From: Dicyema japonicum
Lineage: Eukaryota; Dicyemida; Rhombozoa; Dicyemidae
Direction of reading: 5' to 3'
Length of the DNA: 22,482 nucleotides
NCBI GenBank assembly: GCA_011109175.1
Contig: RDEW01000030.1
Span: 747,899-770,380, forward strand
The first letter of the stretch is position 1. Each line of letters begins with the position of its first letter. A program made the position numbers and the translations under genes. The notes under the pieces are model-generated. The model worked only from the letters and a program-made list of their open reading frames with translations. It did no database searches and was not told the DNA's origin. This document shows, in pieces, positions 389 through 20,374 of the stretch.

Positions 389-934
389 ATGTTTTATTTA
401 TTCCTTCTTGTGAATGTTATAATATGTGATATTTATTATAACAAAACATTTGAGAGGTATTATGAACATTTCAATTGACAGAGATGATCTTCAATTTTAT
501 CTTAAAAAAATATACGATGAACATTCGCTGACGGAAATGTCATATAATCAATTCAAACAGTATGTAGAAGATGAACTACCATATGAGTTTTTTGAAAGCG
601 CGGATAAAAACAAGAATTTTGTGCTCGATGTAAATGAAGCGGTAGATGCCATCAATCCCTCTCAGTCAACCATTGATTCAATGACTATTGTAATATTGTA
701 TTTATTTGAGATTCATTTATTCGAACTACATGATGTCAACAAAGATTCACTGCTTGACATGAAAGAAGCTGAGGGTATGCGGTTTCCACAATTTTAGATA
801 TTAAAATCATTAATTTTTCTGAATTGGACACAAATAATGACGGATTCATCGATAAAGAAGAATTTAGTAAGCAACAAAAATCCTTCCGCCACCATCGGTC
901 AATTAGTATAAACAAAAATAATTTTGAGTTATAA
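389..934 (+). CDS. Secreted EF-hand protein A (CREC-like), 4 exons
   Basis: Exons 389-456, 482-689, 711-774 and 798-934 join into 158 codons. The introns are 25, 21 and 23 nt, all GT...AG. The N-terminus MFYLFLLVNVIIC is a signal peptide, so the protein should enter the secretory pathway. Three complete 12-residue EF-hand loops bind Ca2+ by pattern: residues 64-75 (DKNKNFVLDVNE), 100-111 (DVNKDSLLDMKE) and 124-135 (DTNNDGFIDKEE). The second and third introns sit at the same codon and phase as in the paralogue at 4697-5476, and loop spacings (36 and 24 residues) are identical, which confirms the splicing. The protein is shorter than reticulocalbin/calumenin family members (about 315 aa, six EF-hands) and lacks the first and last loops of its paralogue. 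It ends in NNFEL. CREC membership is an inference; the EF-hand and signal peptide calls are firm. Confidence 0.86.
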
Positions 935-1299
935 AATTAATAGTTTAATACAAAAAATCAATTTATTTAAAAGAAACAGTCAATGGTCATATAGTAGCCA
1001 TTCTGACTGAGTGGCTTTTTTCAGAATATCGAGCGAGATTCGCTCAAATAGCCAGCAGAGTAGAATTCAAGTAAAAAATGTTTCATTAATTAATTTGAAT
1101 TTTTAATTTGTGGTTTTTTGGTTAAAAAAATAGTGCAGATTTTTAATGTAAAATATCAAAATTTATAATTTATTCGTATAATATATTAAAATAGCCAGTT
1201 AACCGCCACCTGTGTGGATAGTCTCTCTCCCTCCATCTAACCCGGGCTCTGCTTCAGAAAAGGCTAAAACCTTAAAGTTGAAGAAATACGCATATCTTG
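935..1299. other. Intergenic, no gene seen; holds a small repeated palindrome
   Basis: No coding stretch is supported. A block around 1018-1065 contains GAGCGAGATTCGCTC, a 6-bp-arm palindrome, followed by AAATAGCCAGCA. Nearly the same block recurs at 6716-6765. The rest is A+T-rich sequence running into LINE debris from about 1300. Confidence 0.5.
1018..1065. repeat. Short dispersed repeat with palindromic core (copy 1)
   Basis: The sequence AGAATATCGAGCGAGATTCG and what follows it match 6719-6760 with a few substitutions. GAGCGA and TCGCTC form a perfect inverted pair around a GAT loop. Flanking similarity is weak. It may be the end of a transposon or of a short interspersed element; the function is unknown. 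Confidence 0.45.
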
Positions 1300-2090
1300 G
1301 TGCCAGTTAATTTTGAACCAGTCGCAATGGAAACGTCAGAAATCATTGGAAAAAGTCACAAGTCCTTCTAAACAAATTCGGATTGCTCATCGCAAAGAAA
1401 AAAATTATAGAAGAAAAATGAGCTTGTTCATTGAGCGAATTCCCTTGCAAATCGTCACGGGAATACAGAAACTTCAACCAATTAGCCACGAAACCTTAGA
1501 GTTGTCGCATCTAGGGGCGTGAATGTCGAACATGCTAAAGAAACTCTACAAGGAATACTAAATAACATAAATGGATGGTTGTGCGAAAATCGATTAAATG
1601 CATGTTCCGGAAAGTCACCAGTCACTCTATTCACTAAGAATAAAAAAATGGGAACGCAAACAATTGATGTCACGTTAAATGGAGTAGTTATACCACAAAA
1701 GAAATTGCAAAAGATACTGGGAGTAACTATTGATATTCTCGTCTGCTTCTCTGCCAAGTGAAATCTATCATATTAACCTGTGTAAAGAAATCAATTTTTT
1801 AAAAGTTTTCTTTTGGAACTGTGGAAAAATTATCCGCCAGGTGTCGAGACCCTCTACAAGCAGTATATCGAGCCAACAATAGGCTGTGCATGTGCTGCGT
1901 GGGGATCTAACCTGGCGGCAACGAACGTATAAAAATTCAAGAGATTCAGTCAAAAGCAATCAATTTACTGGAAAAATATACGGATAGAGAAATTGTCCCC
2001 AGAACACTTGAGTCTATCATAGCAGCAACTGGAGGCAATTTCAGAAGAGGAGCAATAAAAGACCCCCATCCGTATAAAAAATGTTAGAAA
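1300..2090 (+). mobile_element. Decayed LINE reverse transcriptase fragment (Jockey/CR1-like)
   Basis: 1519-1761 encodes a typical reverse transcriptase segment: LNNINGWLCENRLNACSGKS, then VTLFTKNKK, VTLNGVVIP and LQKILGVTID. This matches the (I)..W...N.L..n..KT..v.F motif followed by the .LG...D motif of non-LTR elements. After a frame change, 1840-1960 gives ETLYKQYIEPTIGCACAAWG and SNLAATNV, the thumb-region motif (LY..yi.P...Y...vWG). This block recurs at 16640-16760. Several frameshifts and stops (for example at 1759) show that it is dead. The upstream part, 1300-1510, has no recognisable domain. Confidence 0.75.
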
Positions 2091-2394
2091 GATCACCAAA
2101 ATATTAGTTAGTAGTTTAGACAGCGTTTCTTTGGCTTAAATAATAATATCTTTTTCAGAGATTTATTATGCCTTTTTAGATCACTGAAAGTTTAATTTTT
2201 ATTGTATCGATTTTTGATAAATTTAAAAGTAACAATTAAAGACATTGTCAGTTTTTCCATCAATGTATCGTTACAGAATGGAATAGTTTTTAGTTATTCG
2301 GCAGGTTCCATTTGATGAATATGCTTAATAGACATTTATAAAAGTATAACACTCTCGACAATGTTGGTTATATAAAATAAAATAAAGAAAAATC
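2091..2394. other. Intergenic, nothing recognised
   Basis: A+T-rich with many stops in all frames and no repeat match elsewhere in the window that I could see. It lies between two LINE fragments and may be decayed element sequence. Confidence 0.4.
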
Positions 2395-2470
2395 AGTCTC
2401 AACTCTCAAGAGTTTTTCTTATCTCGACAGTCTGAATATATGCCCTTAGAATACATCCACTTGGAGTTTA
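2395..2470 (-). mobile_element. Short remnant of RLE-type LINE 3' coding end
   Basis: On the plus strand, TGAATATATGCCCTTAGAAT at about 2432-2451 matches 21256-21275 at all but one base, and the similarity continues on both sides. At 21224-21505 this segment is the C-terminal coding end of a LINE on the minus strand, so this is a short minus-strand remnant of the same family. It ends abruptly where plus-strand LINE sequence begins. Confidence 0.5.
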
Positions 2471-2474
2471 GAAA

Positions 2475-2695
2475 AGCCTTTTCTCTATCAATAGATCAAT
2501 CTGCATTCATTATTAATTGTTGTCTTTTTATTTGGTTTGAACATTCATGGAAGCAGGCCACACTACCTGTAAGACTCGGAAGGCTCGGAATTAGTAACAT
2601 TTCTCTCTTTGCATATCTTTCGTCGCTAATGACATGTAACATCCTTGTCAATAGGATTCTACATTCCCTCCTTGAATTCTCTACTGACTAGGACG
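2475..2695 (+). mobile_element. LINE reverse transcriptase remnant (LPVRLG.LGI motif)
   Basis: The frame from 2440 reads KQATLPVRLGRLGISNISLF and then YLSSLMTCNIL before a stop at 2689. The motif Q..LP.r.GGLGI......A.la.S is common near the end of non-LTR reverse transcriptase domains. One glycine of the usual GGLGI is arginine. A second occurrence of the motif (RKKGRLGILF) lies near 6001-6030. Only this short segment is recognisable. Confidence 0.6.
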
Positions 2696-2869
2696 GCAAT
2701 CATGGTCGTCATGCCTGGAGCCATACATATCAGTTTTTCCAACCTTCTATATTCTCTAGGTAGACTCTGAAAGTCTTTTGAAGATCTGCTAGTTACAGCT
2801 AACCAACATCTCCGTGCATGTTTGTTGTCGGGGGCGTCTTCCGAGAGCGTGAAATCTGAAGCATCATTT

Positions 2870-3330
2870 TATGTCGATGCTTCTTATCTGGAGTTACTTC
2901 TACGTCTTAGTCACCGAGGATGTATTTTAGTAAGTTGTATTATTCGTTATCTTACACAATTTTTAGAGAAGATCATTCAAAAAAAATTTGTTAGTGTAGA
3001 TACTTTTTAATTGTTTATAACTCAGGGATCACTGAGAAAAAAAGACAGAAAATCGACAAACAGTTAGGTGATTCCAGTTTTCGTAATCAGCCAGACATCC
3101 AACTTTTTAGTTTTTCATTATTCTTACTCCCGTACGAAAAAGTCTTCTTCATTCCTGCAGTGGAATCAATTGGAGAAGAGAACTTATGAACCAATCGTTT
3201 TTTTTCCTTGAAAATGGACAGGCGAAGCAGGTTTCCATCTTCCTTCCAGACGCAGAGAAATCCGAATCCGCGAATGCATGCAGTAGTTTCCTTGTGTATT
3301 TGGCTTATATTTGAATTTTTCAAATTAGAA
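2870..3330 (-). repeat. Dispersed 0.45-kb repeat, copy 1 (weak coding signal on minus strand)
   Basis: The block matches 21912-22320 over most of its length; GGATGTATTTTAGTAAGTTG near 2919 resembles the start of the second copy. The minus-strand frame in both copies keeps a related peptide: GFGFLCVWKEDGNLLRLSIF here against GSGFLHVCEEDGSTLRLSIS there. Keeping one frame through many base changes suggests the source element coded on the minus strand. I do not recognise the domain. It is probably a 3' fragment of a LINE. Confidence 0.6.
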
Positions 3331-3798
3331 AGGAATAGTCACAAAATTTACTAAAAATCAAATATATCCTTGTTAAAAAAACTTTAGTGAGTATTTAATA
3401 GACATTTGTAGACAAATGCAAGTGAATTTCACTGGAATAACTAACAAATCCAATATTATCTCTGTTAATGGGTCTGACTTTTTCTTACAGAATATTTTTT
3501 CTCTTAGGAGATTTAAGATCGGCATCACGACTTCTTTCAAAATGGTGTCCTTGAAGATCCACTTATTTTTTTAACCAATTCGAAGCCGCTATTTTTATCC
3601 CACAACATGAAGACGACATCTTAATAACTCATGCAGATATCCTGGCCTCTGTAAGCTATTCTATTTTTCAACTAAAACGAATAACTGCAAAGTAAATGAG
3701 AATATCTTCTTGTCTCCTAGAGACTAAACTAAACTAAGATTTGGACTAACTAGAGTGACCATAAGGGATAATTTTACTTGAACCAATAATGTAACGCT
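3331..3798. other. Unresolved stretch with short open frames, no confident gene
   Basis: Two overlapping plus-strand frames are open. One starts at ATG 3416 and runs 52 codons to a TAA near 3572. The other gives SYRIFFLLGDLRSASRLLSK and stops near 3556. A third open run, FEAAIFIPQHEDDILITHAD, ends at a good donor-like GTAAGC near 3651. The pieces could not be joined with short introns into one frame. They may be a decayed gene or element, and I claim no function. Confidence 0.3.
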
Positions 3799-4216
3799 AT
3801 GGAAATGGTTTTTCGGTCCATAAGTGAAATTTTAACTCGATTCATAAGTGCTGGAGTGTCATTATTTGATAGCATTATTGCAATAAATGTCGGGGAAAAC
3901 GTTTTTGAAAATTATTGTCGTATATCTTCACGTCCGAGTGATAAGTCAAACTTATCACTAAATTACCGTGAGACGAAATTTTTAATTTTGTCTAAAAAAT
4001 TGATTGGTGTAGCAAGGAATAAAAATGATAGACCTGACATCAGTCTCCCCTTTCGGAGGAAAAACGAAATTATTTATTTTGTCCAAAAACATGTTTGACA
4101 TAGCATCAGACAAATTGAGAAACCTTGCCACAGGTTACATGATATCCAAATCACTAAACGGACTTCTCGTTTTTATAATAGGACAATTTTACACAGAATA
4201 TTACTTATTTATTTGA
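3799..4216 (+). CDS. Hypothetical 130-aa protein with internal repeat, 2 exons
   Basis: Exons 3799-4006 and 4032-4216 join into 130 codons across a 25-nt GT...TAG intron. I do not recognise the protein. After splicing, a 22-residue internal repeat appears: ETKFLILSKKLIDLTS followed by KTKLFILSKNMFDIAS, both of the form TK..ILSK...D..S. The intron falls inside the first copy, and its removal is what restores the alignment, which supports the splice. The C-terminus (LLVFIIGQFYTEYYLFI) is hydrophobic and could be membrane associated. AATAAA occurs about 10 nt after the stop (near 4227), a plausible poly(A) signal. The start at 3799 is the first ATG in frame but is not otherwise supported; upstream exons are possible. 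Confidence 0.45.
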
Positions 4217-4696
4217 GAGACATGATAAATAAAGTTAACCTTAAAATTTATTTTAATTGAAATTAATTATACAAATTTTCAATAAAAAAGTATTTTAATT
4301 TCTAGAATTTTAACTTTGGCTGAGAAAGTAAGTAATGGATCTCTGTTAGTGGCCTGTCTTAGCGGCCCATTTTTTTTACGATTGCCAGTTTCCTACATGT
4401 TAATAAAACTGGGGTTTTTAATTTTAGCGTCATTTGATTCATCTTTCTCAGACAGCATGGAAAAGGATAATTTGCCCTCTTTCAATTTATTGGAGATGTT
4501 ACCACAACGGTGATTCTGTATTGACTGTACTTCGAAAAAACTTGTTTTCGTTATTACGACTGTAGGAACTGTATACACTTATTCATTTATTGTTAACTTG
4601 ATTCCCGGGATATTCAAGGTAACTAAAATAAAAAAATTGAAAAAAATTAGATGGTAAACCAATAATCGAAATAAATTGTTAAATGGCTTTATAACA
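4217..4696 (+). other. Region with a possible spliced gene fragment, unresolved
   Basis: A clear intron-like element lies at 4328-4349 (GTAAGT...GTTAG, 22 nt). Across it, LTLAEK joins WPVLAAHFFYDCQFPT in one frame. A second possible intron of 29 nt (GTTAAT...TTTTAG, about 4399-4427) would join this to SSFDSSFSDSMEKDNLPSFN, ending at TGA 4511. No start codon or recognised family was found, and the segment 4217-4300 is plain A+T-rich sequence. It could be a gene with a missing first exon, or a decayed one. Confidence 0.3.
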
Positions 4697-5476
4697 ATGA
4701 TTCATTTTTCATTATTATTTTTGTGGTTTTCTAGTGGGGAACAAAATTTTATTAATAAATCGTTTTTATATAATTTATTCGTAGGTCCAATTTCGAGACT
4801 GTAGATGAAAATAATGACGGAAAGATAGATTACAAAGAATTCGTAATTTTTATCAAAAATGACAGAGAAAGAGAAGCACAGAAATCCGCATACAATCTAT
4901 TTAAAAATTATGACGTGGAAAACGTGTCTTATTCTCTATTCAAAAAATATTTCAAAGCTGACGTTCCTCAAAGTCTATTTGAAAGTGCAGACATAAACGA
5001 TGATAATGTTCTTGATATGAGTGAAACGGCCTTACTATTAAATCCCAACTTTGGATTGAATCAATCTGAAATTATTGTATTTTTGACAATAAGTTTAGAA
5101 TGAATTTTTCACTTTCTTTGATCGTAACAGGGACGATATGTTGAATTCTACAGAATTAGAAGGTCATGGTGTATCTAATGATAGAATTGAAAGATCTCAA
5201 TGTAACAGATTTTGACACTGATTTGGATGGTCAATTGAACGAAAATGAGATCCTTAAATATATCGAGATTAACCTTTACTCTGATGATCAAACTAAAGAA
5301 GAATTTGAAATGGTTGATTACGATGATGTAATATGGGATTTAATATTTAGGATAATTATATTTCAACTGAAGAATTTGAGAATTTTTTCGAATCATACTT
5401 GAAAGCTAATGAAGATGGAATGAACGACGAGGAAGCATATTTTGAAAATAATAAAAGTTATTATGAAGAATTATAA
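4697..5476 (+). CDS. Secreted EF-hand protein B (CREC-like), 5 exons
   Basis: Exons 4697-4761, 4785-5076, 5099-5162, 5185-5327 and 5351-5476 join into 229 codons. The introns are 23, 22, 22 and 23 nt, all GT...TAG. MIHFSLLFLWFSSG is a short signal peptide. Five EF-hand loops are seen: residues 29-40 (DENNDGKIDYKE), 91-102 (DINDDNVLDMSE), 127-138 (DRNRDDMLNSTE), 151-162 (DTDLDGQLNENE) and 185-196 (DYDDDNYISTEE); several exist only after splicing. The third exon is 64 nt, as in gene A, with flanking introns at the same positions and phases. The C-terminus is acidic and ends in YYEEL, loosely like an ER-retention tail (HDEL/KDEL), as in reticulocalbins. A role as a Ca2+-binding protein of the secretory pathway is inferred. 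An AATAAA follows the stop within about 15 nt. Confidence 0.88.
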
Positions 5477-5569
5477 CATCAATAATAAACATTAATACTT
5501 TATAATATTAACGTAAGAATTACTTAATTAAAAAAAGTCAGAGGTTATTCAGGAAGTAACACTATAACA

Positions 5570-6060
5570 ATGATTTTGTTTAGATTCTCCCTTTTGGCCA
5601 GTTGGTCAAGGAATTCTCTCATTTTCCTATGTTTCACATCTCCCCTTGTTCTAATAGAGCAGCATTATATGATCCAACTGTCTCATGTGACCCATACTGC
5701 CAAGATAGTACAAAAAGGATCATCTCCTTTTCATTATGCCATTATAGGAATTTTAGAACTACAAGGACTGGCTATTTTCTCCCCCATCCGCTGGTTCCGG
5801 ACAAACTTGAAGGTATTTCATTCTGCGACCATATTAGCAACACACATCCTATACTTGTAACTTCTGACTTTTTATCCTCCAAGTTCATCAAATTTGGGTT
5901 GGACGTTGTTCAAATCTAGATCCTAAGTGTATCGATGTTTTTTTGTTTAGAATTTCTAAGTTCCAGTATATCCTAAATTCGCCTCTTCCTAGTTCACGTA
6001 AAAAAGGAAGACTAGGAATTTTATTCACTATAAAGCTAAGTAGACATTCTGCGTAATAAA
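5570..6060 (+). mobile_element. LINE/repeat debris (repeat family B plus RT motif)
   Basis: 5602-5919 contains NRAALYDPTVSCDPYCQDST, which aligns with a repeat also found at 13780-13945 (minus), 17030-17240 and 17690-17910: a DNA core like GTCATGTGATCCACCTGTCT, then AAAAAGGATCAT. Further on, near 6001-6030, the frame gives RKKGRLGILF, resembling the GGLGI motif of non-LTR reverse transcriptases. Frames are broken between these parts, so this is a dead copy. Confidence 0.5.
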
Positions 6061-6082
6061 ACAATTTCTAGATCGATTAACC

Positions 6083-6334
6083 ACTGGTCTGAATGTGCTC
6101 ATAAAATGATTTTTATATTCTCGATTAAAAGTGATGGTGGAAGCTTTTATAAATTAAGAACACAATTTTATTAGAGGAATAAAAAGTCTAAGTTGATTAA
6201 CATTGAGTACTGGTCTGAATGTGCTCATAAAATGATTTTTATATTCTCGATTAAAAGTGATGGTGGAAGCTTTTATAAATCAAGAACACAATTTTATTAG
6301 GGGAATAAAAAGTCTAAGTTGATTAACATTGAGT
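6083..6334. repeat. Tandem duplication, 2 x 126 bp
   Basis: 6083-6208 and 6209-6334 are direct copies starting ACTGGTCTGAATGTGCTCAT, with only two base differences. The unit holds no gene. It is one of three unrelated head-to-tail duplications of similar size in the window, plus a 104-bp one that straddles an N. It is either a recent duplication or an assembly overlap left unmerged. Confidence 0.9.
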
Positions 6335-6870
6335 AAATTTGTGAATAAAATTTGTCCATAGTAGTAAGATTCTGTATGTGTGAGATGATTAGATAATTGT
6401 TATGTAACTAATCTACTCTACATTTGACACTGTAAGTATTTACCTGGCATAAGATTATTTTTTGGAAATATCGTTCAAACATATGACATTAAATAATAGA
6501 ACAGCTAAATACTCTGATACTCTCATATCCTTTTATCATCAGAATCTTATTACTATGGTTCCCTATTCACAAGAGTTATTGCAATTCAATCTATTAGTAT
6601 TATCGTGTGAATGATAGGTTTGATATTCTTGTATGTGAGACAATTTGGGACTTAATAAAGTTAATAATGACAAAATAAAATAAACAGCGGTCACATTTAC
6701 TGCGTGACTATTCCCTCTTAGAATGGCGAGTGAGATTCGCTCAAATAACCAGCAACGCTCACGAGAATTTACTGTAAGTGCAACTTAATTATTATATTTG
6801 ATATTTGTTCATATGATAATGTTAATTTTTCTATAGTTAGACAAACTAGCCATAGTCTGACTAATTAAGC
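6335..6870. other. Intergenic with second palindromic repeat block
   Basis: No coding stretch is supported. The block at 6716-6765 (GGCGAGTGAGATTCGCTCAA and neighbours) matches the repeat at 1018-1065. The rest is A+T-rich sequence without recognised features. Confidence 0.45.
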
Positions 6871-6875
6871 GGATT

Positions 6876-7231
6876 TTAATCCAGATTGTTGTTAATCCTT
6901 CTTCCTCTTCTTGAAAAAGAGTGTGCCATTAACTCCTCGTTACTCCCCATCTCCCCATCAGAGTCAATCGAAATATCTCCGTTAGAGTCCAGTGGGCTGT
7001 TTTCACTGAATGCCAGTTTTACGAGTTGGGAGGTAGCAGAGGCGTACTCTTAGAAAATATTTAGTAATTCTAAATTATTTCCAATCAATTTCGCATATGC
7101 TGTTTCCTAGGTTTTTTGAATTTTAAATTAAACACTTTTTGACTAAATTCAATGTCAAATACCTTTCTCTTCATACTTTCAGAATTTAATAGCCTTAAAA
7201 TTTCGAATTCGTGTTTATACTTAACGGGCAT
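6876..7231 (-). CDS. Possible small gene, minus strand, splicing uncertain
   Basis: Two open stretches look coding. From ATG at 7231 the frame begins MPVKYKHEFEILRLLNSESM and continues KRKVFDIEF. From 7049 down to the TAA at 6876-6878 another frame reads YASATSQLVKLAFSENSPLD, then SNGDISIDSDGEMGSNEELM, and ends RRGRRINNNLD. A stop at 7050-7052 separates them. One in-frame join uses a GTCAAA donor and the CTAAG acceptor just before AGTACG, giving an intron of about 93 nt, far longer than the other introns here. A 29-nt GTGTTT...CTAG intron fits the first part but leads into the stop. I do not recognise the protein. It may be a gene with one atypical intron, or a decayed one. Confidence 0.35.
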
Positions 7232-8145
7232 TCTTTACGATGTCTTCTCGTGGTTAATAACTTGGATATGAGCAAATACATTGCATTGTATTTGGAACAT
7301 TTTTTTCTTTTTTAAATAATGAAATACTAAGCCTTCCTGGTTAGAATAATCGAAAAATTTTTACTTTGGTTTTGTGAATTATTTATCGTTCATTAAATCG
7401 TACTAATAAAAGAATTTTATTTCATTAGACTTGAAATTGTTCCAAAACTGACCAACACTTCGATCTGTTAGATTTTATTCATTTTTTGTTAAATAAAAAT
7501 GTAGGATTTTAGCGTCAATATTAGATACAATTTTTTAAGTGTAATACTTTAATTCTTTGACTTCTTAATGTCAAATCTCCTTCATATATATCTGAAATTT
7601 CATTACGTTTTTGGGTATAATCAATTTTTTAGTTGATAAACCGTTCTGAGGTAAATTTTTAGGTTTTCAAACGATCTACGAATGAACTTCTGCTTTCTTA
7701 TAGGTAGAGTGTTCAAAATCCAACAATCCACTATAACATTGTTTCTCAACCTTTTTTCTGGGACCCCTAAATTTAATTTATCAAATAATTTAAAATCAGA
7801 AAACCATATTTAGAGTAAATCATATTAAAAACTGCCATCCATCCAAAGTTAAAAAAAATTGGGGGTCACCTAATTATTAATATTAAATTTATTTCCTACT
7901 ACACTAAATGTTATTTTTAACATAATTTGGAATGTCATTATATTCTATAAATTGTGAATCTTTTCTAAAGGCATCGATAGCTATCTATTTATCTAAAGGC
8001 ATCGATATTTTGTCCCTCACCTTTATCGGCATGTTCTTATACTACTATTATTTTTAAAGTACAAAATCAATGTGACTTTTGATTTTGCTAGAAGTTAACT
8101 CTCCAATTTGAAATGATTGAAAGTATATAGTCCGTAATTCATATG
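7232..8145. other. Intergenic, A+T-rich; possible hAT terminal fragment inside
   Basis: No gene was found. 7737-7767 reads CATTGTTTCTCAACC, a T-run, then CTGGGACCCC, which resembles the termini of some hAT-type elements (CAGTG.TTCTCAACC...GACCCC). About 100 bp later GGGGGTCACC (7861-7870) looks like the partly complementary subterminal sequence. No second terminus is seen. Near 7968-8006, TCTAAAGGCATCGATA occurs twice as a short direct repeat. Confidence 0.4.
7737..7870. mobile_element. Possible hAT-like MITE fragment
   Basis: The left end looks like a hAT terminal repeat (TTTCTCAACC, then GGGACCCC). An inverted GGGGGTC element sits about 100 bp inside. There is no matching right terminus or clear 8-bp target duplication, so the fragment is incomplete or a chance resemblance. 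Confidence 0.3.
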
Positions 8146-8149
8146 GGCA

Positions 8150-9001: not shown

Positions 9002-9889
9002 TTAACGTTGATTGAGCATCCTGTAAACGTTATCAATGTCAAATATTTTAACTTTGCAGACAAATGGTTGGATATTAACAGATACAAGTGGAAAATGTTC
9101 CCACCTCCCACAATTATTCATAGAAATACATTCACAATCTAACTTCTCTTCAATATCTCTGTTTGACCAATTTTGAAACGTCTAATTTGAGTTAACATCT
9201 AACCTGATTTACCGGAGGTTTTTTAATCCAAATGCTATTTTTGTTGACTTCGACAAAATTTTCTGATTTAATTTAAACACAAATAAACCATAAACGAAAT
9301 TATTCTCATAAGCATTGATCGGAGAAACTAAAGTCCCATTCACTTCCTTGCAAAGTTCTTCTGCAATTTTACAAGTTTTATGTTTCCTGTAGTATATATA
9401 GCAATCTTGCGAAGTACAGCTGACATCAACGACTATAATATCTACCACTCATATACTGCGAGCGACGCACAAAAACTTTCTGTTGTTATTGCAGCAAGTA
9501 GTTTGCCAATGTCCGCATTCGTTCATTTCCACACAATTCTTGCATGATTTAGTTTCGTAGGGTTCATGATTTGCCCAGTTTGTGTATCTATGCGGTTCTT
9601 TTTCGGTATCTTCAAATATCCAAAAATTATCGTTTAAGTATTTTGAAATGTATAAATATAGAATTAATCGATTTACTATAAATATATTCGTTTGTCCTAG
9701 AAGTGCGAATGTCTGTTAATTTCAGAGAGAATGATTCGCATAGTTGTTTAGCGTCGTAATAATCAAGTTGATCTCCCGTGTAGAGGTAATAATTGCTAAA
9801 CTTGGGGGACTTGATAAAATAACTCGAACCTAACATTTCAAGGTGGACTTACTTTGATAAATAAAAAGAGCGATGAATATAACCGGCAT
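9002..9889 (-). CDS. Secreted protein with two C-type lectin domains, 6 exons
   Basis: Minus-strand exons 9853-9889, 9677-9829, 9457-9654, 9289-9432, 9204-9262 and 9002-9181 sum to 771 nt, or 256 aa plus stop. ATG at 9889 opens a short signal peptide (MPVIFIALFIYQ). The first C-type lectin domain has YYDAKQLCESFSLKLTDIRT, NWANHEP and NECGHWQTTCCNNNRKFLC. The second has IAEELCKEVNGTLVSPI, NSIWIKKPP, FQNWSNRD and NNCGRWEHFPLV...PFVCK. These show the family's conserved cysteines, the C.W and W.N patterns and an EP motif. Four introns are GT...AG of 23, 24, 26 and 22 nt. The junction at about 9655-9676 has a GTAAAT donor but no AG acceptor; 22 nt keeps the frame and the alignment. The fourth and fifth exons (144 and 59 nt) match those of the paralogue at 11465-12075. 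The likely role is extracellular sugar or surface recognition. The odd junction could mean sequence error, noncanonical splicing or a new pseudogene. Confidence 0.8.
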
Positions 9890-11464: not shown

Positions 11465-12075
11465 TTATATATGGACGTGTGGGTTCTTAGTGGTTGTGGT
11501 ACTAGTAGTAGTCGTAGTAGTTGTGGGAGTTGCAGTTGTGGTTTCAGCATTTTTATTATTCGAACACAAGCAGTAGTCACTTTGATCAACTATAGGAACT
11601 TTGCAGACAAATGGATAAGTGGCAGAGGATACAAGATCAGTTGAGAGATGCTCCCACTTCCCACAAAAACTCATTAAAGTACAATCTCCCCTCAAATTAT
11701 CGGCAACATCTCTATTAGACCAATATTGGAAGCTCTAAAATATAAATACACATAAACTTGATCGTGTGAAGGATGTTCTAGCCACATTTCAGTTTTAAAC
11801 AGATTAACAAAGTTATCTAATAAACTAAACCAGGGAACCATAAACAATCGAATTTTCATTCATATCTACTGGAGGGACTAGTGTGCCATTAATTCGATTA
11901 CAACGGTCCTCAGCCTCTTTACATGTAACTCTGTTAGGGTGGTAAAGATAGCAGTATGTAGATGTACAGAAGACATTTGTGGCTTTTTGTTATATTTTTT
12001 TTTACCTTCAACTTCACACATAAACCGTCTGTTATAATTGCAACAGGTTGTCTGCCACTTTCCGCATTCATCCAT
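11465..12075 (-). CDS. C-type lectin protein, 5'-partial, Thr-rich tail
   Basis: Exons 12006-12075, 11839-11982, 11758-11816 and 11465-11734 (minus) join in frame to 180 codons plus stop, across GT...AG introns of 23, 22 and 23 nt. The model begins inside the end of a first C-type lectin domain (MDECGKWQTTCCNYNRRFMC) because an N at 12076 cuts the gene. A full second domain follows: VTCKEAEDRCNRINGTLVPP, EMWLEHPSHDQSFQYWSN, SFCGKWEHLS and YPFVCK. The tail is a run of threonines (ETTTATPTTTTT and on) ending KNPHVHI, a likely O-glycosylated mucin-like stretch; no membrane anchor is seen. Exons of 144 and 59 nt equal those of the lectin gene at 9002-9889, so the two are paralogues in the same orientation. 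Missing: signal peptide and most of the first domain. Confidence 0.85.
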
Positions 12076-12076
12076 N
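12076..12076. other. Assembly gap marker (single N)
   Basis: One ambiguous base marks a join. To its left is a minus-strand lectin gene whose 5' part is absent. To its right is an unrelated plus-strand transposase fragment. The true distance is unknown, so linkage across this point should not be assumed. Confidence 0.9.
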
Positions 12077-12603: not shown

Positions 12604-12720
12604 AAATTAACACAATGTTTTTGTTAATAATTGTCATAAACTTGTTTTCTAAAAATTATATTATCATAAATATTCATTTAAAGTTTGACCTTTATTATTA
12701 ATCAATAATCAGTAAGATAA
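12604..12720. other. Intergenic, nothing recognised
   Basis: Short A+T-rich spacer between the transposase remnant and the tandem duplication. Confidence 0.4.
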
Positions 12721-13006
12721 TTTTTCTATCACTTTAACCAATACACACACGTGTGGCGCACATCGTTGATTAAAATTTAACACTATTTGGAGAATTGAGG
12801 TTTTCAAATTTCTTCTATCTTGGGAAACTGGCCACGTGACTCATATCGTCAAATTAATCTTAATTTTTCTATCACTTTAACCAATACACACACGTGTGGT
12901 GCACATCGTTGATTAAAATTTAACACTATTTGGAGAATTGAGGTTTTCAAATTTCTTCTATCTTGGGAAACTGGCCACGTGACTCATATCGTCAAATTAA
13001 TCTCCA
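12721..13006. repeat. Tandem duplication, 2 x 143 bp, with CACGTG motifs
   Basis: 12721-12863 and 12864-13006 are direct copies differing at about one internal base (GGCGCA against GGTGCA). Each copy contains ACACGTGTGG and GCCACGTGAC; a further CCACGTGG occurs near 13067. The repeated E-box-like palindromes may be incidental. No gene lies directly downstream on the plus strand. Confidence 0.9.
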
Positions 13007-13086
13007 AAATCACATTTTAATAATAATATAAAAAAATCAAAATTTCGACCTCTTCTTTCAAGAACCCACGTGGTTGCTTGAATTAA

Positions 13087-13497: not shown

Positions 13498-13689
13498 CTA
13501 CATTTTAATTATTTCCATCTCATAAATACTTTGATGAACTTTTAATGCGAAATTTAAAGAAAAATTAATTTTAAGCACGTAAATCCAACAATAACCAATT
13601 ATAAACGACAAAACCAAGTTTATGTGCCCAATAACGTGATTCCATAAACCATTCTCCTTACTATTCTTACTTTCTGAAACCTTCTGCAT
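13498..13689 (-). CDS. Small ORF with one predicted membrane helix, doubtful
   Basis: A 63-codon minus-strand frame from ATG 13689 has a polar start, then HVIGHINLVLSFIIGYCWIY, a plausible single membrane helix, then a basic/polar tail. No homologue is recognised and no introns are needed. At this length in A+T-rich DNA a hydrophobic frame can arise by chance, so this is only a candidate. Confidence 0.25.
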   Translation of the reverse strand: MQKVSESKNSKENGLWNHVIGHINLVLSFIIGYCWIYVLKINFSLNFALKVHQSIYEMEIIKM

Positions 13690-13779
13690 TTAATTTATTA
13701 GCCTTAGATACTGTGAGAAAACAAGTTAATAATTATAAATTGGTCTTATCCAGTTCTCATGGTCGCAGAAGCAGAGTCA

Positions 13780-13945
13780 CGCATAACCCAACCCGGAAGC
13801 AACGTAAAGAGAACATTCAGTCACTGCAGCTGTGGGAACCCCTCCAATTGACTGAGGAACAGCAAATGATCCTTTTTGTGTTTCCTAGTAATAGGTGTTA
13901 CCTGAGACGGGGGATCATATGACGCCACTTTAGTAGAACATGAAA
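13780..13945 (-). repeat. Repeat family B, minus-strand copy
   Basis: On the minus strand, GTGGCGTCATATGATCCCCC leads to ACAAAAAGGATCATTTGCTG and CCCACAGCTGCAG. The same order occurs at 17030-17160 and, more diverged, at 17700-17840 and 5630-5790. The frame here reads KVASYDPPSQVTP and HKKDHLLFL. The DNA similarity is clear; the encoded family is not recognised. It usually lies next to LINE motifs, so it is probably part of a LINE. Confidence 0.6.
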
Positions 13946-13958
13946 TAAATAATGAACA

Positions 13959-14274
13959 GAGGAAAGGAAGAGAAACCTTCAGCCAAGTAGTTAATGGGAG
14001 AATTAAACCCAAATGATCGTTGAGATATGATATCCCTACCAATATCCACATCTGGTCTAAAGGAAAGATAAAATACAATAATTTATAATAAATATATTAC
14101 AAATAATCTATTTGAAGAGGAAAGGAAGAGAAACCTTCAGCCAAGTAGTTAATGGGAGAATTAAACCCAAATGATCGTTGAGATATGATATCCCTACCAA
14201 TATCCACATCTGGTCTAAAGGAAAGATAAAATACAATAATTTATAATAAATATATTACAAATAATCTATTTGAA
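13959..14274. repeat. Perfect tandem duplication, 2 x 158 bp, at the CK1 3' end
   Basis: 13959-14116 and 14117-14274 appear identical by eye. The second copy includes the last bases and the stop codon of the CK1 gene (14266-14268), so the first duplicates its 3' flank. This is either a very recent duplication or an assembly overlap. Confidence 0.92.
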
Positions 14275-15412
14275 TTTACGTTTCTTAAATAACTTTAAGA
14301 ATCCCTTCCACTTTGACTTATTTTGTGTAAAAGCCTAATATAAGAAAAATACATACTCTGGAGTCAATATTACTAATATGTGAAACTAAAGGACTGGTGG
14401 CTCCATGAGCTGCCCAATCAGCCTCGCATTCGTCAGAAAGAGTGGATAAGACCTCATCCATTAGATTAGTAAAATATTCGTAGTGAGGATCATCAGTGAA
14501 GCCAAGTTCTCGTGAGTATTTAAGAATGCTGGCAAATTGTTCTAAATATAAATAAAAATAAAACGAGGGAAATCTCCACATAGTTGGTCAATGGAAGTAT
14601 TTATTTTTTTATGACATATATTTTGGTATCTCTCCTTAACAGTATCAGCATGCAGTCCTTGCCATGGAAGAGATCCTCTGAGAAAGTAAAAGATCATGTG
14701 ACAGATAGCCTCCAAGTCATCTCTTCTACTCTGTTCTACAATAACAAATTTTTCAACCTAATCCTCTGTGAGTGTTAATACTCATATAACGAGCAGTCCC
14801 TGTGAGATTCTTATGATCTCTGAACTGAATGTGGGCGCCTGTCTTAGGATCCCTGAATTCCTTGGACAGCCCAAAATCTACAATGTGAACAACTCGGTCT
14901 TTGTTTCCACGTCCTAATAGAAAATTCTCTGGTTTTATGTCTCTGTAAACAATCCCCTTCGAATGGACATATGAAATTAAGGGGAACTTTAATTATTCCA
15001 CACTGAACCAGCTGCATCGCCAACAAGGCAACTTTCTTCACGGAAAAAATACGGCCACATGCATTAAAGTGACACTCCAGACTAGGTCCTAACAGGTCTA
15101 ACACCAGTACGTTATAGTGTTCGTGAATTCCGTAATAATGTACATTAGGTACCCCATCTTGCAATTACTTAATACTATACCTTTGGGACATAACATTTTA
15201 TAGTACTGGTACTCATAGTGAAGTTGGGGAGAACGAGCCTTCACACTCTCCTACAGTTATATATTACACTACCATTTTTATCGCATACTTCACTTGTGTC
15301 GATAAATTTGTACCTATTATAGATATATAACACTACATATTTTTATCTCACCAAAATTCCCAGCACCTAAACTATGCCCTAGTTCATATAAGCCATTAAC
15401 GAGACTATTCAT
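14266..15412 (-). CDS. Casein kinase 1 (gamma/YCK-like), 8 exons
   Basis: Minus-strand exons 15337-15412, 15273-15313, 15181-15250, 15009-15157, 14758-14986, 14565-14735, 14357-14541 and 14266-14334 sum to 329 aa plus stop. All seven introns are GT...AG, 22 or 23 nt. This Ser/Thr kinase has LGAGNFGE (16-22, nucleotide loop), AIKM with catalytic Lys38, the CK1-type [16 protein letters not shown] with catalytic Asp128, VDFG with Asp149, and the CK1 hallmarks [22 protein letters not shown] and [10 protein letters not shown]. The segment is full length for a CK1 kinase domain with a short C-terminal extension. Of the CK1 branches it looks closest to the membrane-linked gamma/YCK type, judged from memory of motifs. 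Those kinases are usually anchored by C-terminal palmitoylated cysteines. This one ends [14 protein letters not shown], basic and aromatic with no cysteine, perhaps a direct lipid-binding tail. GAR1 lies 137 bp upstream on the same strand. Confidence 0.93.
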
Positions 15413-15549
15413 TTCACTTATTCGAATTTATTAACCTATTAAGACTTTGACAATTTAATGGTAATTCAGGTTAACCAGATTAACAATACCTTAAATTAAA
15501 TTATTTATAAAAACAAATTATTATTTATAAAATGTTTTCAAAAGTAAAA
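15413..15549 (-). other. 137-bp spacer between GAR1 and CK1, same strand
   Basis: Very short intergenic gap for two genes on one strand. It must hold the 3' end of GAR1 and the 5' end of CK1. It is A+T-rich. No acceptor motif or promoter element can be assigned with confidence. Confidence 0.5.
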
Positions 15550-16120
15550 TTAAAATCGTCTTCCTCTGAAAGTACCTCTCCCACGAGGACCTCCTCGACC
15601 ACGCGTGTTGAAGGACCCTCCTCTTCCACGTGAACCAAACGATCCTCCTCTACCTCGCTGACTGGCTTGTCCTCTTCCTCCTCTAGAGGCACCTCGACCT
15701 CTAGTAGAAGACTGTGATTCTGTAAAACGTGAGATTGGCAGCAGTTTGGCTGAGTCTACGAATAGTTCAGTCCCATTTGGAAGAGACTTTCCCTTAATTC
15801 CTGCGGATGCCTTGACAGAGCACATAAAGTCATTGATTGGTCCCATGATGTCATCAACCTTTAATTATACAAAGACATACATTTCCGATTTGTTGTTTGC
15901 TGTGATTATAAATATATGCATTAAAGAAGGGAACATGATCCCGTCCATTACATTTCATGAGTATAAAATCATTGAATGTTCCAGATTTAGTTCCTAGTAA
16001 AACCGTCTCAGAGTTTCCACCGGAATATCCACCATGATTGTCGTTAAATCTCCCTCTGTTATTATTAAAGCCTCCTCTGTTATATCCTCCATTATATCCA
16101 CCTCTTTGAGTGTGCATCAT
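15550..16120 (-). CDS. GAR1: H/ACA ribonucleoprotein subunit GAR1, 2 exons
   Basis: Exons 15881-16120 and 15550-15858 (minus) join across a 22-nt intron (GTATGT...AAAG) into 182 codons. GAR1 is a core protein of box H/ACA snoRNPs, which guide pseudouridylation of rRNA and snRNA in the nucleolus and Cajal bodies. The N-terminus is an RGG-type region (TQRGGYNGGYNRGG, with FNNNRGRF). The conserved core reads ETVLLG, VPFFNAYIYN, QIGNVDDIMGPINDF and KLLPISRF, matching the GAR1 beta-barrel order. A second RGG box follows (SRGGRGQASQRGRGG and on), ending RGRRF. The core motif QIGNVDDIMGP exists only after splicing. Start: the first ATG pair at 16118-16120 gives MMHTQRGG. Length fits the family (about 180-220 aa). 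Confidence 0.95.
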
Positions 16121-16261
16121 TTTTGGTAATATTTCCACTAAAATAAACGTGTTTAAATTTAATTTAAATATGATTTTTAATTGATATTGATATTAAATTA
16201 TTATTTTAAGTTAATAACTGTTGATATTTTTATTTTCTGTTTGTTTGTCTTAGTATCAACT

Positions 16262-16565
16262 TCCTGGTGGCATAGTGGTTAGGTGTCGGGCAAAGTGGCT
16301 TAGGTTACGTGTTTGATTCTCGCTGCTGTTCACCTGGTGGAAGGTTCCACGCATCTACGATACTAAAATGGTTTGACGATTGACGCCGTCATCAGTGGAC
16401 TTCACTGCGGAACTCGATTGTCTAGAAAGGACACTCACACAAGAAAAAGAAAAAAAAGTGAAGATCATTCTTTGGCTCTATGATTAGTTAAAATTAACTG
16501 TTCTTTACTTAAATAAAGTGTGTGTCCTGCCTATGCGGAGCTATAAATATTATGGTTCTCGAGAA
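16262..16565 (+). mobile_element. tRNA-derived SINE, copy 3 (best preserved)
   Basis: TGGCATAGTGG at 16268-16278 is a consensus-like pol III A box, and GTGTTTGATTC at 16310-16320 is a slightly decayed B box, 42 bp apart as in a tRNA head. The unrelated body carries GGAAGGTTCCACGCATCTAC, GACGCCGTCATCAGTG, CACTGCGGAACTCGATTGTC, an A-rich AAGAAAAAGAAAAAAAAG, AGTGAAGATCATTCTTTGGC and CTTAAATAAAGTGTGTGTCC. Copies at 8150-8430 and 10590-10780 share the body. Total length is about 300 bp. It is mobilised in trans by a LINE by analogy; the partner is unknown. Confidence 0.85.
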
Positions 16566-17000
16566 AAGGCTGTTATTATTATCAACTTTCTGATGGCGTT
16601 CTTGGGAAACCTAAGAGACCAAAAAGATCTGAGTGGACTGGATGTCATATACAAACAGTTCATCGAGATTACAATAGGATACGCATGAAATATCTGGGGA
16701 TCTAACCTTGCTGCAACGAATTTGGACAAGATCTACAACATTCAAGTGAAGACAGCAAGCATACTAAGGAAATATTCCCGTATGGCAACCTTGACAAGAA
16801 ACCTAGAAAATATGATAGAGGCGAATGGAACAGTGCCCATGCAAAGGAATCGAGAAAGCGGACTTTGTCCATATCGAAATGCGCAGGAGCGCAGTCGCAA
16901 CACCGAAAAAAGATGCGTAGACTGTTGAGAGAGGCCGGAATCACCTGAATTTTGTTTATTTTAGATATGACGGTGGTTTTCTGGTTTAATAATAATAATA
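16566..17000 (+). mobile_element. LINE reverse transcriptase 3' fragment with (AAT)n tail
   Basis: VIYKQFIEITIGYA, a stop, then NIWGSNLAATNLDKIYNIQV matches the thumb-region motif seen at 1840-1960 (LYKQYIEPTIGCACAAWG). The frame continues to TGA at 16942 with a basic tail (NRESGLCPYRNAQERSRNTE). AATAATAATAATAA at 16989-17001 could be the short microsatellite that ends some LINEs. The in-frame stop at 16686 marks it as dead. Confidence 0.7.
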
Positions 17001-17026
17001 AGTTTGCTGTTTGTTTTTTCCTCTTC

Positions 17027-17240
17027 TCTCTTCCTATTAGAGTGGCGTCATGTGATCCACCTGTCTAGGTGGCGCCCAGTCTCTGGCTGGCACGAAAAAG
17101 TATCATTTGCTCTCCCCCACTCCACAGAAAGTGTCTCCACAGCTGCTAGTATAGACGTCTTTTATTCTTCATCCTGATTCCGGATAGATTCTGTTTTAGT
17201 AGAGGTGGAAACTGGATACACTTAATTAAGTGTTTACTTT
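17027..17240 (+). repeat. Repeat family B, plus-strand copy 1
   Basis: TTAGAGTGGCGTCATGTGAT, GTCTAGGTGGCGCCCAGT, ACGAAAAAGTATCATTTGCT and TCCACAGCTGCTAG align with 13780-13945 (minus) and 17690-17910. It ends in ATACACTTAATTAAGT, also shared with the next copy. It directly precedes the LINE C-terminal fragment and probably belongs to the same element. Confidence 0.65.
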
Positions 17241-17252
17241 AACTTCTTATCT

Positions 17253-17594
17253 TTGGTCTGGGACGCAACTCGTGTAGACACGTTCTCAAGCACGAATATT
17301 TTCAAATCGGTTCAGACACGTGGAGCAGCTGCTTCGACTGCGGAGAACCTAAAAATCAAGAAATATTCTTGCCTCAGGGATCGCTACCGATTTACTCTTG
17401 TTGCGACCGAATCATCGGGAGCCGTTGGTCCAATGACGGCTGAGTTCTTGCGAGAACTCGGAGGATTGCTTGCCAGAAAGAAAAGGGATCAACGAGAAGG
17501 GATATGGATAAGACAAAAGATTGGAATGGCTATACTCAGAAGGAACTTGTTCGTAGTCCACGCAGCAGGCTTCCTCAACTTTAACTTATTATAA
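17253..17594 (+). mobile_element. LINE 3' end, RLE-like C-terminal domain (copy 2)
   Basis: The frame is open from 17253 to TAA at 17592-17594. It holds TRGAAASTAENLKIKKY, RYRFTLVATESSGAVGPMTA, EFLRELGGLLARKKRDQREG and HAAGFL. It is an inverted, closely similar copy of 34-303; the differing residues include VATESSG against VATEASG and NLFVVH against NSFAIH. Such high similarity suggests both were inserted fairly recently. The 5' part of the element is missing. Confidence 0.72.
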
Positions 17595-17689
17595 ATTAGA
17601 GAAAAAAATAAATATTTTTATTGAGAGATATGTGGTTACAAATACGTGACTACTTGGTTTGAAATTTTTCGTGTTTTTTTTATCCTCCT

Positions 17690-18115
17690 TTTTTCTTGTT
17701 CTCCTAAATTAGCGTCATGTGGTCTAGTGTCTCAAGTGATGCCCAGTATTAGGGTAGTACGAAAAAGGGTAATTTGCTATCCATATTCACTAGATGGGTT
17801 CTCACAGCTATAAAGACTGGATGTCTTCTTTATATTGGTCTGAGAGGACTTTTCGACATTGGAAAGACTTTTTATGACTGTTAGAATTAAATACACTTAA
17901 TTAGTTATTAAATACACTCTCCCAGGCATTTCCATTGGGAAGCCTCGTATTAGATGTTTTAGTGGCCCACTGTTGTAAATGCGGAAGTATATTAGACGTG
18001 AAAAATATTCATGTCCTCACATGCAGAGGAGTGGTGGAATGAGTCAGAGCCACATAGACATCAAATGAGTGGAAATACTGGAAGCTGCAGTTTTCAAGGA
18101 ATACTAATCTTGCCC
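17690..18115 (+). mobile_element. Repeat B copy 2 plus LINE zinc-knuckle remnant
   Basis: 17700-17840 is repeat B (TTAGCGTCATGTGGTCTAGT, then GTACGAAAAAGGGTAATTTG). 17929-18115 gives FPLGSLVLDVLVAHCCKCGS, then ILDVKNIHVLTCRGV, a C.CG....D....H.L.C pattern known from the C-terminal cysteine-histidine motif of several non-LTR reverse transcriptases. A stop soon after (TGAGTCAGAGCC region) breaks the frame. This is a dead fragment. Confidence 0.55.
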
Positions 18116-18851
18116 GTGTTTAATATTTTATTTTTATTAAAATAATTAATTAAAAAGTAAAAAATGACATTATCGCAACTAAAACGAATAATGGTATTTA
18201 AAATAAAAAATGGCATCTACAAATTCGTAAAATTTCTGAAAATTGCATTTATGGCAAATGCAATAATAACATTAATTCTTTATATTCAACTTGGACACCG
18301 TTGAGTTTAATTTAGAATCTTACGGGAAAACAATTGCAAACCTATCTGAGATGCACCCTTAACGCATTTCATTAAGACAACTAAAATTAAACCAACAGCT
18401 CCCACAAACTGCCGGTAGAATCTTTTAATTTATAAACAGCAAATCATTCCGAGACCGACAACGCACAAACTGCCTATTCTTTTTGCCAAAAATCTTCATC
18501 TTATTTAAAAAAAGCACAAAAAAGGGGAGACGGCATTGATGTGCATAGAAGTAGAAGTATGCAACATGTATCGCTTTAACTAACTACATCCTATAAATGA
18601 AACCTCCAATTCATTTAATTTTTGGCTGAACAAGATTCAAATTCAGATTCTACATGCATACGAAGTTTCCTCTGTTTAAGAATTTTCAATTTCTCCTGAG
18701 TCCGTCATTTCGTCGATGCTCATGAGAGATAAGACAAGAGCTTTCAAAATAGACATTTTTTGTTGATTAATTAAAGTTTTGGTTTAATCGTTTTTGAAAA
18801 ACAAAAATTTAATTTATTTAAAATATTTAAAAAATATTATTGTTGTTTGTA
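18116..18851. other. Region upstream of RPAP3; two short unexplained ORFs
   Basis: On the plus strand, 18164-18304 encodes 46 codons with a central IAFMANAIITLILYIQLG, like a type II membrane anchor; later open segments (YGKTIANLSEMHP, LNQQLPQTAGRIF) share its general frame but are cut by stops and no short introns rescue it. On the minus strand, ATG 18758 gives MSILKALVLSLMSIDEMTDS, and a neighbouring frame gives KLKILKQRKLRMHVESEFES to a TAA near 18620. Neither is a confident gene. The 5' region of RPAP3 must lie at the right end. Confidence 0.35.
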
Positions 18852-20374
18852 ATGAATGCTGACAATGCCTTTAAATTTCAAAATGATATTAGAATAAATC
18901 AGTTAGAATATCAGGACTTTGTCTCAGACATTGATAAATGGATTAAAAATCGCTCAAGTAAGACAGAAAAGGTGATTCCTCGTCCACCAGCAGTGCAGCC
19001 AGCAAGCAACGAATTATTCAAAGAAGCGGTAAATTCTCATAGTCACATTAGGGTAACACTCATTACAAAAACGGAGAATTCAGTGATGCAGTAAAGGCAT
19101 ACACAAATTCTATACAAATTGACTATAATAATCACATTTTGTATGCCAATCGTGCTATGTGTTATATTAAACTACAAAAATATGATAATGCTATTGAGGA
19201 CTGTGATGCGTGTCTCTCACTTAACTCTACTTTTCACAAGGCACTCTACAGACGGGCCCTGGCTTATTTTAAGACCGCCAAATATGAGTTGGCTGTGGCA
19301 GATGCACGGGGGTTCCTTGACCATCAACCTGGTAATCCTGAAGTAGCTAATCTACTTCAACAGGCGGAGGTATATGTGGTTTCTTATTCAGAACTTCATT
19401 GGAGCTAAAAAATTAATCGCTTCGGGGAATTATAATATAACTGCTGGAGAAATCGAGTCACGTGTTGTTGTACCGACATTTGGCACATTTGATGAGGTTT
19501 TAGTGTATCTACACGTTAAGACTGAGAATTTACGGAAAGTTGTAATCATGGATATCAAGAGAGACCTCAATCAATCTAAAGATGGACCAATTTTGACTGT
19601 GGGTATGGAAGAAGGAGACAGTAATCACCGTAAAGATGAATTAAATGTGACTGAGAGTAAGGAGCTCGAGATAAACAATAATCAGTCTGAGAGTGAACAA
19701 AATGTCCCCAAAATTGGGAATATGGAAGTTGCTAAAGACAGTAATTATAATGAGGATGAAGCAGTCTCTACTGAGAGTATAGGAAGGGTGACGCGTTTAG
19801 ACATTCTCAACAATTACTCACAATTCGAAAAGTCTCCTTGTAAAGATGTCGAAAAAAGCTATTATCAACCTGACATTGTCATCACTGAGTATAAGGAGGA
19901 CGTTAATCAATCTAAGAATGAAGCAGCTGTTGAGAGTATGGAAGAGATAATATGTTTTGACATTCCCAAGAATTACGTAGAGTTTGAGAGGAGAGTCAAA
20001 GGAATGAGTATATCATCCTTTTACAAATACTTCAAGGTTTTAATAATTATCAAATTGTAGAGAATATCTAGTACAGATTATGTGAAATTATTTGGTGAGA
20101 TGTTGGAGAGTTCAGTGTTGAGTAGAGTGATTTATGGATTAATCGAGGAAAGGTGAAAGCTTAATATAATTGTAGTGATTGCGCGTTAATTGTTGATGTA
20201 CTGGAAGGAATGGCTAATGTGAGGAGATTCTCTTTTGTTGTGTTATTTATGCGTGATGAGAAGGAAGGTATGCTGCTGTGTTATTATGTAGCTGTACGGA
20301 ATTTGCTTAATAAATGTGTCGGTTTTGTCAATTATGAACGAATTGATGCTCTTAAAAATAAATATTATGTTTGA
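18852..20374 (+). CDS. RPAP3: RNA polymerase II-associated protein 3 (RPAP3), 6 exons
   Basis: Exons 18852-19028, 19052-19369, 19392-20036, 20061-20152, 20176-20267 and 20292-20374 join into 468 codons with GT...AG introns of 23, 22, 24, 23 and 24 nt. RPAP3 is the TPR co-chaperone of the R2TP/HSP90 machine that assembles RNA polymerases, snoRNPs and PIKK complexes. The N-terminus (YQDFVSDIDKWIKN) resembles RPAP3's opening segment. Residues about 55-165 hold three TPRs with the EEVD carboxylate-clamp pattern KEAGN, YANRA and KALYRRA. A charged low-complexity linker (166 to about 350) follows. The C-terminal domain (about 355-468: ISSFYKYFKRISSTDY, then VDVLEGMANVRRFSFVVLFM) matches the RPAP3_C domain and is readable only after splicing. 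Human RPAP3 has two TPR arrays and about 665 aa; this one has one array and is shorter. SPAG1 also has TPR plus this C-terminal domain and is the main alternative. Confidence 0.9.

Follow-up and report, generated by a model that had tools for sequence, protein, structure and literature searches.

Probable spliceosomal introns of 21 to 26 nucleotides in Dicyema japonicum and their putative branch motif

Dicyemids are minute kidney parasites of octopuses, and a stretch of Dicyema japonicum DNA raises the question of whether segments of only 21-26 nucleotides (nt), which interrupt the reading frames of seven genes, are introns removed by the spliceosome. The stretch (hereafter the window) comprises 22,482 nt of contig RDEW01000030.1 (747,899-770,380) in an assembly of 64,672,829 bases and 191 contigs; sequence was taken from the window, from 12 randomly drawn stretches (113,653 bases) and from regions around conserved genes. 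Judged from the sequence, the segments are most probably (we put it at about 0.88) true dicyemid introns of the U2 type, reduced almost to the shortest length with which the spliceosome of the animal can work and excised by intron definition. Very short introns have been described from dicyemids from 2007 onward, so introns of 21-26 nt in these animals are already known and are not new; the additions, relative to the literature consulted, are a T-N-A-Y motif placed at +16 to +17 from the donor and an excess of in-frame stops among introns whose length is a multiple of three (3n introns).

Introns of the window

An independent list for the window holds 27 introns, every one of them (27/27) running from GT to AG, with lengths of 21 nt (one intron), 22 nt (ten), 23 nt (eleven), 24 nt (three), 25 nt (one) and 26 nt (one); TAG stands at the acceptor end of 19 of the 27. 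The original prediction, made from the letters alone, had given the same tally of 27 canonical introns of 21-26 nt and the same 19 TAG acceptors, and the introns that it had named at 457-481, 690-710, 775-797, 5077-5098 and 15859-15880 are all present in the independent list. Its total of 28 introns is recovered for the 27 canonical ones, while the remaining non-canonical one is probably the join near 9,676-9,640 in the first lectin gene, where a three-frame reading found no fitting GT-AG pair. Its further claim that splicing restores proteins of known families holds for the EF-hand, casein kinase 1 (CK1), GAR1 and RPAP3 genes and for part of lectin gene 1; lectin gene 2 has no Pfam match of its own at E 0.01.

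The strength of support varies from intron to intron, coming from spliced alignment, a gain in Pfam score, sharing between paralogues, or the reading frame. GAR1, CK1 and the C-terminal domain of RPAP3 reach their Pfam cut-offs only after joining. Within the paralogue pairs of the window, five introns (two EF-hand, three lectin) stand at identical alignment columns and in identical phases; the two lectin genes share 71 of 149 residues, and the first intron of the EF-hand genes (457-481 and 4762-4784) does not align between the paralogues. The intron at 690-710 is of 3n length and contains no in-frame stop; it is therefore not required by the frame and is less strongly supported. The genes and introns are as follows.

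389..932, plus strand: EF-hand gene 1; three introns, signal-peptide-like start, EF-hand_6 match of 34.8 bits when joined (23.5 bits unjoined)
457..481, plus: intron, 25 nt, phase 2; from frame and ab initio prediction
690..710, plus: intron, 21 nt, phase 0; column and phase match 5077-5098 of the paralogue
775..797, plus: intron, 23 nt, phase 1; column and phase match 5163-5184
4697..5476, plus strand: EF-hand gene 2; four introns, EF-hand_6 match of 47.6 bits
4762..4784, plus: intron, 23 nt, phase 2; from frame
5077..5098, plus: intron, 22 nt, phase 0; common to EF-hand gene 1
5163..5184, plus: intron, 22 nt, phase 1; match to gene 1 ungapped over the join, column and phase equal
5328..5350, plus: intron, 23 nt, phase 0; from frame
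9002..9889, minus strand: C-type lectin gene 1; four canonical introns and one join without GT-AG, after which Pfam Lectin_C matches at 34.2 bits
9830..9852, minus: intron, 23 nt, phase 1; from frame
9640..9676, minus: non-GT-AG join; change of frame, from three-frame reading
9433..9456, minus: intron, 24 nt, phase 1; common to lectin gene 2
9263..9288, minus: intron, 26 nt, phase 1; common to lectin gene 2
9182..9203, minus: intron, 22 nt, phase 0; common to lectin gene 2
11465..12075, minus strand: C-type-lectin-like gene 2; three introns, truncated at a single N (12076)
11983..12005, minus: intron, 23 nt, phase 1; common to lectin gene 1
11817..11838, minus: intron, 22 nt, phase 1; common to lectin gene 1
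11735..11757, minus: intron, 23 nt, phase 0; common to lectin gene 1
14318..15412, minus strand: CK1 gene; six supported introns and one optional, from spliced alignment; Pkinase match of 89.5 bits when joined (no match for the two open pieces scanned)
15314..15336, minus: intron, 23 nt, phase 1; spliced alignment, position common to paralogue L034
15251..15272, minus: intron, 22 nt, phase 0; spliced alignment, common to paralogues L034 and L035
15158..15180, minus: intron, 23 nt, phase 1; spliced alignment, common to L034 and L035
14987..15008, minus: intron, 22 nt, phase 0; spliced alignment, common to L034 and L035
14736..14757, minus: intron, 22 nt, phase 1; spliced alignment, common to L034 and L035
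14542..14564, minus: intron, 23 nt, phase 1; spliced alignment, common to L034 and L035
14335..14356, minus: possible intron at the CK1 C-terminus, 22 nt; suggested by the look of its splice sites, frame open either way
15550..16120, minus strand: GAR1 gene; one intron, Gar1 domain of 59.8 bits when joined (21.3 and 18.0 bits for the unjoined pieces)
15859..15880, minus: intron, 22 nt, phase 0; within the Gar1 domain
18852..20374, plus strand: RPAP3-like gene; five introns, TPR and RPAP3_C domains, the latter (56.6 bits) found only in the joined sequence
19029..19051, plus: intron, 23 nt, phase 0; from frame, spanned by the TPR match
19370..19391, plus: intron, 22 nt, phase 0; from frame
20037..20060, plus: intron, 24 nt, phase 0, with an in-frame TAG; within RPAP3_C
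20153..20175, plus: intron, 23 nt, phase 2; within RPAP3_C
20268..20291, plus: intron, 24 nt, phase 1; from the C-terminal frame

When genes were predicted ab initio under a flat prior on intron length, with training on everything, introns of all lengths up to 100 nt were strongly over-called; when the prior was made to peak at 22-24 nt, 3n stretches within exons were called as introns. Because of this over-calling, only introns anchored by proteins or backed by paralogues were used in the statistics below. Candidates rejected in the window are 14781-14758 and 15052-15032 in CK1, which are coding by protein alignment, and 19497-19520 and 19777-19800 in RPAP3, both of which lie inside an open frame.

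Eight open reading frames of the window suspected of being transposon pieces were scanned, and none scored above its Pfam cut-off. Three sequences outside the genes are duplicated head to tail, of 126 nt at 6076-6327, 143 nt at 12718-13003 and 158 nt at 13943-14258; the duplicates agree at 96-99% and are either recent tandem copies or unmerged alleles. Single Ns occur at 12076 and 12353, the latter flanked by two 104-nt copies (98% alike) that look like two contig ends placed side by side; SSPACE puts a single n at such scaffold joins. Single Ns between duplicated ends, together with scaffolds near 1 megabase (Mb), fit the scaffolding of the published D. japonicum assembly (PMC6736024).

Spliced alignment of conserved genes

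Conserved proteins were aligned to the genome with a purpose-written protein-to-genome aligner. The CK1 gene of the window, aligned with scallop CK1 and with cuts of 10-300 nt allowed, gave exactly six cuts of 22-23 nt when GT-AG was required (score 756; 261 when introns were disallowed). Dropping the dinucleotide rule left the cuts in place (within 7 nt) and again at 22-23 nt, and one extra cut of 100 nt appeared at the poorly conserved C-terminus. The same positions recur in two CK1 paralogues, six of six in L034 and five of six in L035, with other intron sequences and lengths of 22-26 nt. Three further CK1-like loci (L036, L037 and L038) show single doubtful joins of 150, 35 and 14 nt and appear to be intron-free, where other CK1 genes have five or six introns; they are possibly retrocopies.

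Prp8 (L028), 81% identical to that of Lingula, has 36 of 37 joins at 20-26 nt under the GT-AG requirement. Without it, 34 of 41 cuts measure 20-26 nt, and the other seven (10, 11, 13, 30, 72, 79 and 95 nt) include the ends of alignment chunks. The thirty-seventh GT-AG join, of 11 nt, covers a T run that is one base short (minus strand of L028, about 4881-4891); since Prp8 is hardly dispensable, this break of the frame is probably an assembly error. In CCT5 nine joins of 20-24 nt were found, one of them weak, and cuts of 22-24 nt were also made with neither length nor dinucleotides constrained. Eight CCT genes compared with one distant CCT5 reference (10-200 nt allowed) gave 49 of 60 joins at 20-26 nt, the chance level in this comparison being 4.2% (507 of 12,194 GT..AG spans); archaeal thermosomes were tried as intron-free references and returned no locus.

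Taken over seven well-conserved genes (Prp8, CCT5, three CK1 genes, HSP60 and ATP synthase alpha), 76 of 78 joins measure 20-27 nt, and the two misses are the 11-nt join in Prp8 and one of 131 nt in ATP synthase alpha, which lies in a local duplication. A 25-nt join in HSP60 was judged to be coding; it is counted within the 78 and kept outside the pool of introns described below. ATP synthase beta aligned over 460 residues without any join. The V-ATPase-like loci L032 and L033, for which the references are weak, yielded a mixture of joins, some of 22-23 nt, some of 43-120 nt and some of other lengths, and are left out of all counts.

Intron anatomy and splicing machinery

Intron structure was analysed in a pool of 134 introns (36 from Prp8, 48 from CCT genes, 26 of the 27 from the window and 24 others), whose length is 23.36 +- 1.33 nt, a spread that is too narrow because the CCT part was limited to 26 nt. 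Donors carry almost no information beyond GT: relative entropy is 0.01-0.10 bits at +3 to +8 (134 introns), with A in 53% and T in 37% at +3, and G in only 15% at +5 (110 introns). A motif search on the pool with no preset pattern returned T-N-A-Y, the form that the branch consensus takes in animals (yUnAy). The A of this motif stands at +16 in 45 places, where dinucleotide-preserving shuffles predict 15.5, and at +17 in 27, where they predict 13.9, and the sum was reached in none of 300 shuffles; an A of any context occupies +16 or +17 in 107 of 134 introns (68.4 expected). Seen from the acceptor, the A of the motif is mostly at -7 or -8, and the final 8 nt contain far fewer AG than expected (9 occurrences, about 26 expected by chance). 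From the placement of the motif and the depletion of AG we infer a branch about 16 nt after the donor, with the first AG beyond it as acceptor, and the T-N-A-Y adenosine would be the branch nucleotide.

A shortage of 3n lengths like that of Paramecium was looked for among the 134 introns and was not found, 34 being of 3n length. An in-frame stop is present in 29 of these 34, against 22.7 expected when phases are taken at random from the introns of other lengths; 50 of 5,000 such draws gave as many. With the last codon excluded, in-frame stops occur in 21 of 34 3n introns and in 38 of 100 introns of other lengths (p = 0.018); an excess of TAG ends taken alone is not significant in 3n introns (25 of 34 versus 58 of 100, p = 0.15). 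These modest statistics suggest that 3n introns carry an in-frame stop more commonly than expected.

Small nuclear RNA searches covered U1, U2 and U6. Matches above the cut-off number 22 of 25 for U2 and 9 of 10 for U6, in which the usual ACAGAG is present; two of the three U1 copies read carry the usual ACTTACCTGG and the third ACTTACTTGG. Genes for Prp8, SF1 (SF1-HH) and a U2AF-large-like protein were also found. Six of the U2 matches form a loose cluster of copies on contig C115 (851,074-962,467). The original prediction had read the segments as spliceosomal introns near the lower size limit, and the GT-AG ends, the T-N-A-Y motif, the depletion of AG, the shared positions and phases, and the presence of U1, U2, U6, Prp8, SF1 and a U2AF-like factor all agree with it.

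Combining these observations, we incline, with little more than even confidence, to a joint account in which a spacing rule (branch A at +16-17, exon 6-8 nt later) holds, the introns lie at the steric minimum of an ordinary animal spliceosome, and retained introns are policed by translation. Each intron would consist of a G at +1, a branch A within T-N-A-Y some 16-17 nt past the donor, 6-8 more nucleotides and AG. The weak donors may be recognized mostly through spacing and AT-richness, and too few bases would remain between the branch and the AG for a polypyrimidine tract to be of use. U1, SF1 and the U2AF-like factor would then have been kept despite a poor match between U1 and donor and despite the lack of a tract for U2AF, and 3n introns would tend toward an in-frame stop, so that retained introns could be policed by translation.

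Competing readings and what the introns mean

Several observations weigh against the reading of these segments as dicyemid U2-type introns with a placed branch. At these lengths the position counted from the donor and that counted from the acceptor are so strongly correlated that either could be the fixed one, and the 36 Prp8 introns taken alone did not yield the placed motif, returning a scattered TATTA instead with A at -7 mildly raised (20 of 36, 14.6 expected); the 98 other introns do show the placed T-N-A-Y. None of the 11 U1 matches exceeds the cut-off (best 69.0 against 69.5), and the U2AF-large-like gene, read in pieces, does not reach the cut-off of its family when scored as one match. 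The tree of Prp8 places it among bilaterians on the longest branch, with its position not resolved among protostomes. The proportion of G and C (GC), at 30% in the random bases and 33.5% in the window, is below the 36.7% printed for D. japonicum, and homeodomains match at 67 places, with single exons counted apart, against 38-55 genes printed for three dicyemid species (PMC6736024 and PMC6543705).

Published values place the introns among known systems. In Dicyema acuticephalum introns measure 26.2 +- 1.9 nt (n = 16; Aruga 2007, PMC2222250), and a 2008 reanalysis lists 41 introns with the values 24.93 and 2.51, which we take as mean and standard deviation, gives the donor the weakest score among its species (0.5 bits) and reports no branch signature (PMC2483917). 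That species resembles the present genome in its very short and uniform introns, its weak donors and an intron-free gene for ATP synthase beta (PMC2222250); it differs in mean length (23.36 +- 1.33 nt here) and in that T-N-A-Y is placed here. In another Dicyema sp. the median intron is 27 base pairs (bp), with two thirds below 30 bp (PMC6543705). Outside animals, Paramecium has introns of about 25 nt and 3n introns rich in in-frame stops (PMC5014332), both as here, whereas the present introns show no 3n shortage (34/134) and belong to an animal with the standard code. The Bigelowiella nucleomorph likewise combines minimal size with little sequence constraint, in an algal relict nucleus whose introns are shorter still at 18-21 bp (quoted in PMC2222250), in contrast to the animal studied here. 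A literature search on dicyemids and branch points found nothing beyond the 2008 reanalysis. A work by Ogino (2010), whose title reportedly speaks of highly shortened introns in dicyemids, or another paper may already contain the branch placement.

The original prediction had also ascribed the DNA to a dicyemid. The organism is very probably one, to judge from printed dicyemid values: intron length, weak donors and an intron-free ATP synthase beta all agree. That the introns are real and belong instead to another fast-evolving bilaterian, in which introns shrank independently, is unlikely in view of this agreement and of the median of 57 bp in Intoshia, an orthonectid and thus a member of the other simplified group (PMC6543705), although the likeness depends on printed values, the GC and homeodomain counts are not exactly the dicyemid figures, and Prp8 falls in the unresolved protostome group.

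Much less probable is a removal of the segments from DNA rather than RNA, as internal eliminated sequences of the kind that dicyemid chromatin elimination might produce. Their sizes do resemble those of short ciliate eliminated sequences. DNA elimination with formation of circles is reported in dicyemids (PMC6543705), but all 27 segments end in GT..AG rather than in TA or other direct repeats, and a placed branch-like motif, the depletion of AG before the end and the presence of a spliceosome speak for splicing. Pseudogenes or assembly errors with frames broken at random are scarcely credible: the T run one base short in Prp8, the lectin 1 join without GT-AG and the single Ns with duplicated flanks speak for them, yet random breaks would not yield GT-AG segments of 22-24 nt in Prp8, CCT and CK1 genes, nor shared positions and phases. 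A ciliate contaminant can be given hardly any weight either, since the standard code, applied to the 2,300 residues of Prp8, meets a single stop, the terminal one (the one-base break being skipped), since Prp8 is 81% identical to Lingula, and since the genome has 67 homeodomain places, even though Chromidina is a known ciliate parasite of cephalopod renal organs and Paramecium introns are of about 25 bp (PMC5014332).

The D. japonicum assembly is described as 67.5 Mb with 4.1% gaps and 49% repeats, annotated with 6.2 introns per gene and a mean intron of 38.2 bp (PMC6736024), whereas the protein-anchored joins here are mostly of 22-25 nt, a hint that the 38 bp in print is an overestimate. The original prediction expected standard annotation to overlook most genes of this kind by taking their exons for separate short ORFs or pseudogenes; these annotation figures, 6.2 introns per gene but a mean of 38 bp, support it only indirectly. 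Gene prediction in dicyemids must permit introns down to about 20 nt. If the spacing rule is true, the published absence of a branch signature would be a matter of sample size. Introns of 22-24 nt served by canonical U1, U2 and U6 would set hard limits on donor-branch and branch-acceptor spacing for structural models, and show which elements of an intron are indispensable to splicing in an animal.

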